64,000 nt of DNA. Source: Nitrosomonas sp. PY1 (GTDB lineage Bacteria > Pseudomonadota > Gammaproteobacteria > Burkholderiales > Nitrosomonadaceae). Made by a program: the position numbers and the translations under genes. This document shows, piece by piece, positions 24,445-29,772 of this stretch; within the stretch, counting starts at the first letter, position 1; each line of letters begins with the position of its first letter. The stretch covers positions 438,400 through 502,399 of the forward strand of contig NZ_BQXC01000001.1 in the NCBI RefSeq assembly GCF_022836435.1, in the 5' to 3' direction. The notes beneath the pieces are model-generated. The model was not told where the DNA came from, searched no databases, and saw nothing but the letters and a program-made list of their open reading frames with translations.

Positions 24445-25260
24445 ATGGAATTACCGCGTACACAGTATAGTTAGGAGTTTCGTAAGGAATCAGTAAAGTT
24501 TTTCAAAGCAAGTGGATTGACGTTGGTTGAAGCGGCAAAGCGACTGTCATTACCCAAGGGGACGCTAAAGAACTGGGTTTATGCTGACGGGGAGAACTCG
24601 CTGCGGTAGGCAAGCGTCAGAAGGCGCTGACTGAAGTTGAACTAGAGCTATCCAGAGTGAAACGGGAATTAGCGGAAGTGAAGCTGGAACGTGATGTTAT
24701 AAAAAAGTGTGCGACGTATTTCGCCAAGGGGTCGCGGTGAGATACGATCTGATCGAATCGCTGCGACAAAGCTATCCGGTTACGCTCATGTGCCGGGTGC
24801 TTGAATTCAAGGTGACGACTAATTCTAAGCATAATCTGCCAATTGTCCCCAATATTTTAGAACGGGAATTTACTGTTAGAGCGCCCGGTAAAGTATGGGT
24901 CAGTGACATGACTTACATTCCTACCGATGAAGGTTGGTTGTATCTGGCTGGAATAAAAGATCTATTTAATGGCGAGTTAGTGGGCTATGCGATGAATGAG
25001 AGAATGACAAAGAGCCTGGTTATGCAAGCATAATTTCGTGCAGCTGCAAGTAAACATTTAGATCAAGGTAGCCAATACTGTGCGCACGATTACCAGAAGC
25101 TATTGCAACAATTTGGCATAACCGCCTCCATGAGCCGCAAGGGTGACTGCTATGACAATGCCCCGATGGGAGGAAGCTTCTGAGGGATACTCAAAACCGA
25201 ACTGGTGTATCACCGGAGATTCAAAACACGCCCACTTTTTGCCAAGCTTTCATTCAATGA
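24445..25260 (+). pseudogene. Decayed IS3-family element (orfA and orfB remnants)
   Basis: A degraded IS3-type transposase pair. The orfA part reads MELPRTQYS, then a stop at 24472-24474, then EFRKESVKFFKASGLTLVEAAKRL with a helix-turn-helix; near 24605 the frame shifts before the coiled-coil end LSRVKRELAEVKLERDVIKK. The orfB part starts near 24737 (VRYDLIESLRQSYPVTLMCRV) but lacks a block of the amino half. It then shows the integrase-core start WVSDMTYIPTDEGWLYLAGI, a stop near 25033, the DQGSQYC region with the second Asp, and a damaged Glu box (GGSF then stop). Several stops, a shift and a deletion mean it cannot move on its own. Confidence 0.85.
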
Positions 25261-25269
25261 TTTGAGAAA

Positions 25270-25515
25270 GTAAAGATTGCTGCCATACATCCGGACTCTG
25301 TATGAGGCGCATTGCCTCTGCCCCTGATGGAATTCGCTGAGTAGCGCCTTATCACCTCAACGTGCTTGATGCACTATGTGCTGTTCAGGTTTAGCCACTC
25401 ACGGTCTAACCAGTCTCGCCATCATGTTATGATTGCCTGTGCAATCGGTGGTAATCTTTCTCTTTAAACTCGTTTTTAATGCAACAACCAATACGCCTCT
25501 ATTCAACCGTCGCGA
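25270..25515 (-). other. Non-coding stretch 3' of the IS110-type transposase, candidate guide-RNA end
   Basis: About 245 bases between the decayed IS3 orfB and the IS110-type transposase stop, with no credible open frame. A short stem GAGGC/GCCTC lies at 25304-25318. In the IS1111 group of IS110 elements the non-coding end downstream of the transposase encodes the bridge/seek RNA that guides insertion, so this is where such an RNA would be expected. The element border itself is not defined from sequence alone. Confidence 0.35.
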
Positions 25516-26555
25516 TCAGTGAGCTGCGGCAGTTGCTACCATAGTGTGATCGGGGTGAAATGTAGCTTTTTTGGTAAGCAATACCCAGATAATGCGGGCA
25601 TTTTTGTTTGCCAAGGCAACAGCAGCAACGTTCTTATTGCGCCGCGCTATCAGCTTGCACAGCCAGCTTCCGGGCTCGGCCTTTTTCTCGGCAATGCGGA
25701 TGACTGCTCTTGCTCCGTGGATCAGCAGGGTGCGAAGATACGTATCTCCGCGTTTGCTGATACCGAGCAATAACTGTTTGCCTCCGCTTGCATGCTGCTT
25801 GGGCACCAACCCTAGCCATGCCGCTAATTGTCTGCTGTCCTTAAACTCCATTGCATTTCCTACGGTTGCCACAATGGCGCTCGCTGTAATCGGGCCAACA
25901 CCAGGAATGGCTTCCAATCTTTGGCTGGCCTCACTCTCCTTGTGCCAAAGCTTGATTTGTAACTCTAATTCGTCCACTTGGCGATCCAGTTCTTTAAGGT
26001 GGTCATTCAGTCTTTCCAGCAATCGGCGCATGGTTCCTGGCAATCCATTTTCAGCATCTTCCAGAATGTCAGGTATGCGTTTGCCAATCGATTGGTACCC
26101 TGTGGGATGACGATACCAAACTCAGAGAGTAGACCCCGTATCTGATTTGCCTGCGCAGTTCTAGCTTTCACAAAACCCTGTCTGGCACGATGCACCGACA
26201 GAATTGCTTGTTGCTCAACGTTTTTGATCGAGACAAAACGCATGTTGGGTCGACTCACCACTTCACAGATCGCTTCTGCATCCGCCATGTCATGCTTGTT
26301 GGTTTTGACGTAGGGTTTGACGAATTGGGGCGACATGAGCCTGACGGTGTGCCCAAATTCACCCAGCTTCCTCGCCCAATGGTGTGAACTACCACAAGCT
26401 TCTATGCCAATCAGGCAGGGCTCAAGATTGGCGAAGAACCTTACCATCTCGCTGCGGCGCAGTTGCTTGCGAAGCACCGCTTTACTATACATATCTACAC
26501 CGTGAACTTGAAATACTTCTTTTGCCAAATCAATGCCTATCGTTGTAATCTTCAT
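25516..26555 (-). pseudogene. IS110-family (IS1111-group) transposase, one frameshift
   Basis: DEDD-type transposase/recombinase. The amino half (26555 down to about 26080) has GIDLAKEVFQVHGVD with the first Asp, GIEACGSSHHWARKLG with the Glu, and NKHDMADAEAICEVV with the later Asp residues. The carboxyl half (from about 26080 to 25516) has AIPGVGPITASAIVATVG and GISKRGDTYLRTLLIHGARAV, the Tnp20-type domain with the conserved Ser region. The halves are in different frames. Around 26080 the reading RLANAYL should be RLAKRIPDILEDAENGL, which a single missing A in an A run would explain. Otherwise both halves are complete, so the shift is recent or a sequencing error. Confidence 0.88.
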
Positions 26556-26649
26556 ATCGGACGCTCCTCTCTGGGTTAGTGGGTTTTATTGCACCACTAC
26601 TTTGGCACTTCGATGCCGTTTAGGGTAGTGGGCGTCCATTCCATTACCT

Positions 26650-27281
26650 CAGAGTGTTTTCAGCAAGAACAACCATTTTTGAGGCAAATAACCACACCCT
26701 TCGCCGGCTACATTGAACACCTGTTGAAAGTTTCCAGAACCTGTCTGGTATGTGTAGATAGAAATCAATACAGCGTTCCCGCACAATGGTCAGGACAAGT
26801 GTTTTCAGTCAGAGTGACTGCCAATCATCTCGACATTGTGGCGGCGGGTAAGACGATTGCAACGCATCAACGCAGTTTCTTGCGCGATCAACTCATCTGC
26901 AATCCCTGGCATTATCTGCCTGTACTGGAAAAGAAACCGGACGCCATACGTCATGGCGTGACATTCCAGAATTGGGAACTGCCGGAGGCGATTCGGCGCG
27001 TGCGTTCGATCCTGCGGCAACAGGATAAAAATGAACGTGCCTTTGTTGATCTGTTGTTACTCACCCGTGAAGCTGGATTGGATGCGCTCGAGACAGCCTG
27101 TGAGTTGGTATTGGAATCAGGCGTTGTCAATGCAAACGTACTACAGAATGCAGTCAGACGCTTGATTGAGCCTATTCGCCCCAAAACATTGAATGCCAGC
27201 GATAATTTACAGTTAATCACTGAGCCTCAAGCGGATTGTCAGCGTTATGATCGACTGCTGGGAAGCCACTATGTCCACTGA
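26650..27281 (+). pseudogene. istA: IS21-family IstA, carboxyl part only
   Basis: Carboxyl ~210 residues of an IstA transposase. The recognisable part runs from QEQPFLRQITTPFAGYIEH through VDRNQYSVPAQWSGQVFSVRV and LPVLEKKPDAIRHGVTFQNW to the end. The amino half with the helix-turn-helix and DDE core is missing; the IS110-type element lies directly upstream, so its insertion or a deletion with it probably removed the rest. The fragment overlaps istB by 11 bases, as in intact IS21 elements. The exact left edge is approximate. Confidence 0.85.
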
Positions 27282-28020
27282 TCTACTAACCCAGCTCAAA
27301 GCATTGCACTTGTATGGTATGGCAGAGGCATGGTCTGAGTTAAGAGCGGAAGTATCGCAACGCAAGCAAATGCAATCTCCCGAAATCATGCTGAGCCAGC
27401 TGATCAACGCCGAAATTGTAGATCGTCAAATGCGCAGCCTGAAATACCAGTTGAAAGTCGCAAAGTTTCCAATTCATCGGGATTTGGTGAAATTCGACTG
27501 GAATGAAACACTGCTCTCACGCCAGCAAATAGAGCAGCTCGCAACGGCTGGTTTTATGAATGATGCACATAACCTCATTCTGGTCGGTGTCACGGGAACA
27601 GGTAAAACCCATTTGGCCACTGCACTGGGTATTGCAGCTATCCATCATGGAAAACGTATAAGATTCTTCAACGCCGTTGATCTGGTTAATCTTCTGGAAC
27701 AAGAAAAACAACTGAATAAAACCGGAAATCTGGCCAAAAGACTCATCCAATTTGACGCCGTCATCCTGGATGAACTGGGATACCTGCCTTTCCCTGAATC
27801 CGGAGGCGCCTTGCTGTTCCATTTAATCAGCCAATTGTATGAGCGTACCTCACTCATCATAACTACCAACTTAAAATTCAGTGAATGGGTGCAGGTTTTT
27901 GGTGATGCAAAAATGACCACCGCTCTGTTAGACCGAATTACCCATCATTGTGACATCATCGAAACAGAAAATGATTCTTATCGATTCAAGCATCGTAAAA
28001 AGTGTATAAAAACCGATTAA
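27271..28020 (+). CDS. istB: IS21-family helper ATPase IstB
   Basis: AAA+ ATPase that helps IstA choose and activate target DNA. Starting at the ATG at 27271 ([21 protein letters not shown]) it has 249 residues. Walker A is GVTGTGKTH, Walker B is [12 protein letters not shown], and [23 protein letters not shown] is a strong IstB signature. It looks intact, but with IstA truncated the element cannot transpose by itself. A second copy of its last ~110 bases, inverted, is at 30830-30950. Confidence 0.95.
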
Positions 28021-28040: not shown

Positions 28041-28084
28041 CTTTTCAACGCCGATACCTGGACAGTTTTCAATGCCGATTGACA
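28041..28084 (+). repeat. IS21 right-end terminal repeats
   Basis: Two direct copies of a ~15-base unit, TTTTCAACGCCGAT (from 28042) and TTTTCAATGCCGAT (from 28066), followed by TGACA. This is the multiple-terminal-repeat end expected of IS21 elements. The element should end at the CA at 28083-28084; RTX-like coding sequence follows at once. Confidence 0.75.
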
Positions 28085-28260
28085 ATCGCTATGGCGATAG
28101 CAATGATATTCTATCGGGTGATAGTGGAAATGACATCCTGAATCGAGGAGATAGCAAGGACTATATTTCAGGCGATGCTGGAACGGCTTCTTCACATTTA
28201 TTACTATCGGTCAGATCGATTCTATTATCGATTGAAACGTTGCCAGTAGCTTGACAGTAT
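28085..28260 (+). pseudogene. Carboxyl remnant of an RTX (calcium-binding repeat) protein
   Basis: Directly after the IS21 end the sequence reads YGDSNDILSGDSGNDILNRG and further degenerate GGxGxD-type nonapeptides of secreted RTX proteins. Near 28180 the frame shifts; in another frame it continues FTFITIGQIDSIID, stop, NVASSLTV, stop, which resembles the usual end of such proteins with a Trp codon turned into TGA. So the IS21 element cut an RTX gene and the leftover decayed. No start, no secretion partner nearby. Confidence 0.7.
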
Positions 28261-28534
28261 AGCATTAACGATAATCTGAGTTTTAACAGCAAACTGCTTG
28301 ATCCTCCATAACCATATTTGACTGTAATTCTTCTTAAACAGTGCCGTCATTTTTAAATTGACAGCTAACGTTTAGGGTGCTTGAGAAAACGTTATTTGCA
28401 TTACATTTTGAATAAGGCCTCATTTAAATCATCAGTAAATTATTTGTGAACTACTTGTGAACTTATTGTGAACTTTTTGTTAGGCTTGTGTCTAACAAGT
28501 ACAAATATTTTTCAATAGTTTTCTGGAGGATGAA
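28261..28534. other. AT-rich non-coding stretch with operator-like repeats
   Basis: No credible gene in these 274 bases. The right part holds the triple direct repeat and the inverted repeat listed separately and presumably the promoter of the small membrane protein. Confidence 0.5.
28444..28474 (+). repeat. Triple TTGTGAACT direct repeat at 11-base pitch
   Basis: Three exact copies of TTGTGAACT begin at 28444, 28455 and 28466, so each is one DNA turn from the next. A 7-base inverted repeat TTGTTAG/CTAACAA (28477-28498) follows immediately. The block lies 60-90 bases before the start of the 64-residue membrane protein. This arrangement is typical of operator or iteron arrays bound side by side on one DNA face; the binding protein is unknown. 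Confidence 0.7.
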
Positions 28535-28729
28535 ATGAGTACAAAAAAAGCTAGCAGTCCAACGGTATTATTTATTTTTGTTTTGCTGAGTGTATTAGCT
28601 TCAATTGGTTTGATTTTGTTTGAAGGAATGCACGCGGGAATATTGGTTTTTGTTGGTTACTTCGTTGTAGCAGCAATTAGCAGCATTTTTAGAGATAAAA
28701 GATACTACATTCGAAGAACTTTAGGCTGA
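28535..28729 (+). CDS. Small two-helix membrane protein, function unknown
   Basis: A 64-residue protein with a polar amino end (MSTKKASSPT), two hydrophobic segments (about residues 10-28 and 33-51) separated by a Glu-Gly-Met-His turn, and a basic tail (RDKRYYIRRTLG), which suggests an inner-membrane protein with its carboxyl end in the cytoplasm. A good ribosome-binding site (CTGGAGG) and a strong terminator frame it, so it appears to be a complete single-gene unit. I do not recognise the family. Confidence 0.75.
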   Translation: MSTKKASSPTVLFIFVLLSVLASIGLILFEGMHAGILVFVGYFVVAAISSIFRDKRYYIRRTLG

Positions 28730-28746
28730 GTTAATCAAAATTCTGA

Positions 28747-28777
28747 GGTCGACCCTGGTTTCAGGGTTGGCCTTTTT
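28747..28777 (+). terminator. Rho-independent terminator after the small membrane protein
   Basis: GGTCGACCCTG (28747-28757) pairs with CAGGGTTGGCC (28762-28772) through a four-base loop, with two G-T pairs, followed by TTTTT. A strong intrinsic terminator. Confidence 0.88.
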
Positions 28778-28888: not shown

Positions 28889-28933
28889 CTGTTAATTCGT
28901 AGGTCGTAGGTTCGAGTCCTGATCGTGGAACCA
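28889..28933 (+). pseudogene. 3' relic of a tRNA-Asn gene
   Basis: From CTGTTAATTCGTAGGTCGTA through the T-loop GGTTCGAGTCC to the encoded CCA at 28931-28933 the sequence resembles the 3' half of tRNA-Asn (GTT at 28891-28893). The 5' half is not recoverable, the anticodon stem does not pair, and the T-stem is flawed, so it is not a working tRNA. Such 3' halves are commonly left by elements that integrate into tRNA genes. Confidence 0.65.
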
Positions 28934-29253
28934 TAGTTGTGTTTTTATATCAAAATATAAAGCTTTGAAAGGTGTGCCCGAAAAAACAATTAGATTTTAG
29001 TTCTATCTAGTATCCATTTCGTTTTTTCATTGTTTTTGATAAACGAAAGCCTACTAAGTATTGCATCGGTTAGAAGCTATTAAATAACTTTTAAAGTGTT
29101 TGCATTTAGTAAAGATGCAACAATTCAACATCCTACTTTTCTTTATTGCCGTTATTTGTTGTCTTTGTTTGTAGCTTTGATATAGCGTACCTATACTAAA
29201 ATCGAGAATCTACAGGCTAGGTTTAGGTTTAGGTGTAAGGTTAAAATATAAAT
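28934..29253. other. Non-coding AT-rich gap
   Basis: About 320 bases without a supported gene. A short tandem run of TAGGTTTAGGTTTAGG lies near 29218-29235, just ahead of the secreted repeat protein. Nothing else stands out. Confidence 0.5.
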
Positions 29254-29772
29254 ATGTTTATGAAAATTTTAGGTTTAGCTTTGTTGCTGACTTTTAATAC
29301 CTTAAAGGCAGAGACTATACGTCTTCCAATTGAGTTTGGGCAGAGTAAGGCTTTAACATTTGATACCAATATTAAGAATGACGAAATAGGTTCTCAAATC
29401 AAATCACTAGGTGGTAGCTTTTCAAGTGCAGAAGGACATCGTGCCAATGCGGCAATTGGTCTATCGAAATCGGACGGGATATTAAATTATACGCACAAAA
29501 ATTCGAATAGAAGCATAACATTTGATACTAATATTTCAAGTGATCGGACGAGTGAGCGGACGATGCCTCAGATAAATTCGGTGGGTGGAGGCTTTACTGG
29601 CTCAAGCGGACATGGTGTCAGTGCAATACTTAATACAACAGGAAGCGGTGGAGCAATAAACTACACACATACCAATAATAGAACGAAATTAAAATTTACC
29701 AGCGGCGTAAATGTAACTAATGGTATTCATGGGGTAAATATTGGAGTCCAGCTACCTCTTGGTACTAAATAA
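29254..29772 (+). CDS. Secreted glycine-rich two-repeat protein, function unknown
   Basis: 172 residues. A signal peptide (MFMKILGLALLLTFNTLKA) should be cut after residue 19. The mature chain holds two homologous units and a shortened third: about residues 32-85, 86-143 and 144-172. Each begins with a (S/A)xTFDTNI-like strand and goes through (L/V)GGxF, GHxxxA and the end NYTH. The alternating small/polar pattern suggests beta structure. There are no cysteines. The GGG-F-GxS and A-rich strands recall glycine-rich attacin-type domains, but that is only a resemblance by eye. I cannot assign a family. It lies alone in the IS21-bounded segment. Confidence 0.7.
   Translation: MFMKILGLALLLTFNTLKAETIRLPIEFGQSKALTFDTNIKNDEIGSQIKSLGGSFSSAEGHRANAAIGLSKSDGILNYTHKNSNRSITFDTNISSDRTSERTMPQINSVGGGFTGSSGHGVSAILNTTGSGGAINYTHTNNRTKLKFTSGVNVTNGIHGVNIGVQLPLGTK

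Follow-up and report, generated by a model that had tools for sequence, protein, structure and literature searches.

The window, a 64-kb stretch of the 2.85-Mb genome of Nitrosomonas sp. PY1 (labelled G000, in the genus that includes N. oligotropha), carries an array of short direct repeats ahead of a small membrane-protein gene. Three exact copies of TTGTGAACT lie on the forward strand at 28444-28452, 28455-28463 and 28466-28474 with an 11-bp period, exactly where the preliminary description had placed them. The array (28444-28474), a proposed tandem operator that is kept upstream of homologues, is preceded by a weak in-phase unit, CAGTAAA (28433-28439, forward strand), which is degenerate (G000:C1:466832, 3 mismatches over three units), and followed by a degenerate fourth unit, TTGTTAG (28477-28483, forward strand), in the same 11-bp register. 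Further downstream on this strand, a Shine-Dalgarno sequence (GGAGG, 28525-28529) precedes an open reading frame (28535-28729) for a 64-aa protein with a basic tail, which belongs to a Nitrosomonas family of 60-90-aa proteins, and an intrinsic terminator, a hairpin followed by a T-run, lies at 28746-28777. Two short hydrophobic segments are clear in the hydropathy of the 64-aa protein, which had no match in Pfam or NCBIfam, and all the parts of the self-contained small membrane-protein gene with its own terminator described earlier were indeed found. Directly upstream of the array, remnants of insertion sequences (rve-domain, IS110, Mu-type and IstB/IS21 ORFs) are clustered at 24700-28020, and a short RTX-like remnant (GDSNDILSGDSGNDIL) lies at 28072-28254, between this cluster and the array.

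No other exact 9-mer triple spaced by 10-12 bp exists in the 64-kb window, and 20 block shuffles produced none. Single copies of TTGTGAACT are unremarkable (16 sites with at most one mismatch vs 18.7 expected), showing that the signal is the phased triple and not the individual unit. The 7-base dyad reported next to the repeats is also present (TTGTTAG at 28477-28483, CTAACAA at 28492-28498, forward strand) but marginal, since 7 bp is reached in 4% of shuffles. It did not hold up as a second, conserved operator: among nine further promoters of the 64-aa family that were tested, only L006 has a comparable one (8 bp), and in the window the left arm is the fourth unit and the right arm largely coincides with the predicted -10. 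An RNA hairpin was ruled out as well, because the dyad is not conserved and its left arm precedes the predicted transcript start.

The preliminary description had suggested searching for the repeat upstream of homologues of the 64-residue protein. Within the relatives sample, such homologues were identified in four further genomes (three copies in one of them), and all those sampled carry TGTGAA units at 11-bp steps upstream. The absence of repeats there, named earlier as refuting, was thus not seen, and comparison strongly supports the putative operator ahead of a small membrane-protein gene. Across the genus, the three-unit pattern (up to 3 mismatches) matched in 50 of 61 Nitrosomonas genomes, at many sites in each, and a reversed control gave almost none. 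Among 300 genomes of the order (up to 2 mismatches), only 2 of the 292 outside the genus matched, each with a single, chance-like site. Array coordinates are identical in one genome of the genus sample (G065) and in the N. oligotropha Nm45 record (G085). Judged from these comparisons, the array is one copy of a genus-wide control element in Nitrosomonas, a member of a dispersed set and not the feature of an island that it had been taken for. In the open-licence papers covered by our literature searches, we did not find this element described.

Most arrays examined stand ahead of small membrane-protein genes, at a near-fixed distance genus-wide. Over their length, the 64-aa family aligns with a larger one of MKTSQ type (hhalign probability 94.9), and the two together account for over 130 matches, spread across 40 of the 61 genus genomes; no member was found outside the genus in the 300 genomes of the order searched. 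An array was present upstream of the start codon in 62 of 76 sampled two-TM family members vs 2 of 1520 shuffled upstreams, and at least five of the 14 array-less members (L066, L067, L073, L074 and L080) directly follow another member in tandem pairs. A second target class consists of 25-aa single-TM peptides (e.g. MEKLPVTYYAIVLILFMFLVLEAFV); single-TM ORFs of 24-28 aa with good ribosome sites were observed behind arrays in several genus genomes (L236, L237, L239, L241, L248 and L298). In some species, arrays are also found ahead of CzcCBA-type efflux operons and a SulP transporter, and the genes observed behind arrays include outer-membrane efflux genes of CzcCBA-type operons (L043, L046, L051 and L057). 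His-rich, secreted-looking proteins lie behind arrays in Nitrosospira multiformis Nl7 and Nitrosovibrio Nv6 (L313 and L315), and a similar His-rich gene (L062), with no array ahead of it, lies upstream of phoPQ in the genome of the window.

The arrays end in a conserved GAACTT-N16-TCnnA. When upstream regions were aligned on the last unit, C16 was present in 84% and A19 in 85% of 62 promoters. GAACTT-N15/17-TCnnA occurred in 45 of 76 upstreams vs 0.5% of shuffles, and when spacers of 13-19 were allowed between GAACTT and TCnnA, the spacer was exactly 16 in 43 of 47 matches; a strict ECF match is missing in ~40% of sampled upstreams. The published AlgU consensus is GAACTT-N16/17-TCtgA (PMC10651043), and the family shows GAACTT and TCnnA at this 16/17 spacing. 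In the window, the proposed ECF (RpoE/AlgU-type) -35, GAACTT (28470-28475, forward strand), matches this consensus inside the third unit, and the proposed -10, TCTAA (28491-28495, forward strand), overlaps the right dyad arm at a spacer of 15, the family mode being 16. A sigma-70 -10 was rejected: a TATAAT-like stretch exists in some promoters of the 25-aa class, but the shared feature at fixed spacing is TCnnA. The genome of the window encodes an RpoE equivalog. From sequence, we thus infer that the core linked to the arrays is a predicted RpoE/AlgU-type ECF promoter.

The 11-bp period fits response regulators (RRs) of the OmpR/PhoB family, because the half-sites of PmrA (CTTAAG-N5-xTTAAT) are separated by five base pairs and stand head to tail in an 11-bp register (PMC3973317). 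Operators of this type have at least two direct half-sites at a 10-11-bp period over or just upstream of the -35, and the array has both this period and, on the predicted promoter, this position. The genome encodes four OmpR-family RRs with intact receiver domains, namely two PhoB, a PhoP-like and an unnamed RR, and a fifth Trans_reg_C match belongs to a large open frame that is of a different kind. The two phoB copies (L060 at G000:C1 2.01 Mb and L061 at 1.64 Mb) encode proteins that are 98% identical, and transposase-like ORFs lie directly upstream of L060. The unnamed RR forms a pair with a histidine kinase (HK), the pair adjoining hemE (G000:C1, about 835.7-837.7 kb), and PmrA/BasR is among the best structural matches of the RR. 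It was correct that no regulator lies beside the repeats, the candidate being encoded ~370 kb away.

An orthologue of this unnamed RR is missing from 10 of the 61 genus genomes. Eight of these ten have no array, two (G012 and G017) have only weak, 3-mismatch matches, and the small proteins are missing from all ten. In the array-less or RR-less genomes checked, PhoP and PhoB are retained; the RR-less genomes checked also encode the RpoE equivalog, except that in G017 it is split and below cut-off. Co-absence with the RR gives Fisher p values of ~2e-6 for arrays and ~4e-6 for small proteins, but RR absence reflects two inferred losses on the PhoPQ tree, one weakly informative, so that the co-loss cannot be significant once relatedness is counted and the link between RR and array is suggestive only. 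Other genes may also have been lost along with the RR. Among named genomes, a set picked by RR search, arrays are found in all 9 ammonia oxidisers that have the candidate RR and in none of the 9 genomes where only distant relatives occur, a pattern that likewise follows phylogeny. Conversely, the RR is present without an array in G014 (83% complete) and G035, and G019 has the RR with no array match. No arrays were found near RR genes in the named loci, nor upstream of the PhoB, PhoP and candidate RR genes in the genome of the window, and there is thus no sign of autoregulation, which we discarded. Altogether, sequence comparison suggests that a two-component regulator whose genes lie elsewhere in the genome may read the array.

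We propose that the array is the upstream half of a compound promoter that controls a dispersed small-membrane-protein regulon, with the PmrA-like RR as its most likely regulator, a reading to which we give about even chances. Subunits of the regulator would occupy successive units head to tail and assist an ECF sigma factor at the -35 that overlaps them, and the regulator would be the PmrA-like RR-HK pair beside hemE. One operator would then drive the 64-90-aa two-TM family and the 25-aa peptides, joined in some species by CzcCBA-type efflux and SulP transporters. The broader proposal, that ammonia oxidisers possess a lineage-specific small-membrane-protein regulon with compound promoters where subunits of an OmpR-family regulator line up head to tail on the -35 of an ECF sigma factor, is more tentative, and we hold it at somewhat below even. 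Activation is favoured over repression, by analogy and from the arrangement in the 25-aa class, and from the efflux targets and the type of sigma factor we infer an envelope or metal-stress role for the regulon. The spacer of 15 rather than 16 in the window counts against the proposed explanation.

The most serious alternative, which is nevertheless less probable than the PmrA-like RR, is that the tandem operators serve another protein (PhoP-like, a PhoB paralogue or a tandem binder that is not an RR), the loss of the RR being coincidental. Only two RR loss events are available, the RR locus itself has no arrays and BldC, a non-RR protein, is reported to bind direct repeats cooperatively (PMC5859096). 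Against this, PhoP and PhoB are kept where the arrays are gone, and both the arrays and the RR orthologue are limited to ammonia oxidisers among the genomes searched.

It is also conceivable, if rather unlikely, that the array is a repressor site. In most of the family, one TTGTGAA unit lies inside the -35/-10 spacer, as one array unit does in the larger subfamily, and a protein bound to this last unit would block the ECF promoter until released by a signal. The 25-aa peptide class, by contrast, mostly has its units over the -35 and upstream of it, the usual place of an activator, and PmrA and PhoB are activators from such sites.

A further possibility concerns the products: the small proteins may be regulatory, structural or membrane-active. 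That they are stress-induced membrane-active peptides of the type I toxin kind (TisB-like), their expression being timed by the array, appears improbable; size and hydrophobicity fit, as do several copies per genome, tandem duplication and standalone transcripts, but no antisense RNA or antitoxin was found in an Rfam scan of the locus, which gave no relevant match, and the conserved basic tails and dispersed copies equally suit a regulatory or structural role.

The iteron array raised in the preliminary description, or a replication-origin remnant of a mobile element, has next to no likelihood, despite the helical period of the direct repeats and the IS remnants just upstream, because arrays precede promoters and ORFs at many chromosomal sites in dozens of genomes, with no replication gene or origin seen beside those examined. 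Chance repeats are just as implausible, since a lone TTGTGAACT is expected at random but the phased triple is missing from shuffles and the array is kept across the genus.

The compound promoter has partial counterparts in known systems. MgrB is a small inner-membrane protein controlled by PhoP, similar to the situation proposed here, where such genes would be under a candidate OmpR-family regulator; in Nitrosomonas, however, there are many dispersed paralogues per genome. The operators of PmrA/BasR and the OmpR/PhoB family share with the array direct half-sites, the 11-bp register and, for those operators, head-to-tail binding (PMC3973317), and the candidate regulator is itself PmrA/BasR-like by sequence. 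Nevertheless, the array is not a PmrA box: its half-site is TGTGAA and not CTTAAG, so that the CTTAAG-N5-xTTAAT pattern is absent, it has at least three units instead of two, and its core promoter looks ECF-type, not sigma-70. RpoE/AlgU (sigma-22) promoters have GAACTT-N16-TCnnA in common with the arrays (PMC10651043), and one of them, the AlgU-dependent promoter of mucE, also drives a small envelope protein gene (PMC3819740), but most promoters described here differ from these in having a tandem operator over the -35. AgrR of Cupriavidus metallidurans, an OmpR-family regulator of a metal system, is comparable in that some of its operators carry additional direct repeats in phase (PMC7380067); the AgrR core is, however, an inverted repeat (6-4-6), whereas the conserved part here consists of direct repeats only.

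What appeared as an isolated repeat thus becomes a regulon of nitrifying bacteria whose regulator, promoter and gene family can be tested. For the small proteins examined, neither Pfam nor NCBIfam gave a confident match, and their genes are otherwise undescribed. If the compound promoter is correct, two-component and ECF sigma envelope-stress routes would meet at one site, and it would provide an entry to what dozens of small, uncharacterised membrane proteins do.

Downstream of the terminator, window positions 28895-28934 resemble the 3' half of a tRNA (ggttcgagtcctgatcgtggaacca); ARAGORN and Rfam do not recognise a tRNA in this stretch, which is possibly an old attachment site. Beyond it, at 29254-29772, a 172-aa protein with no confident Pfam match begins with a signal-like segment and has two glycine-rich halves that resemble each other.
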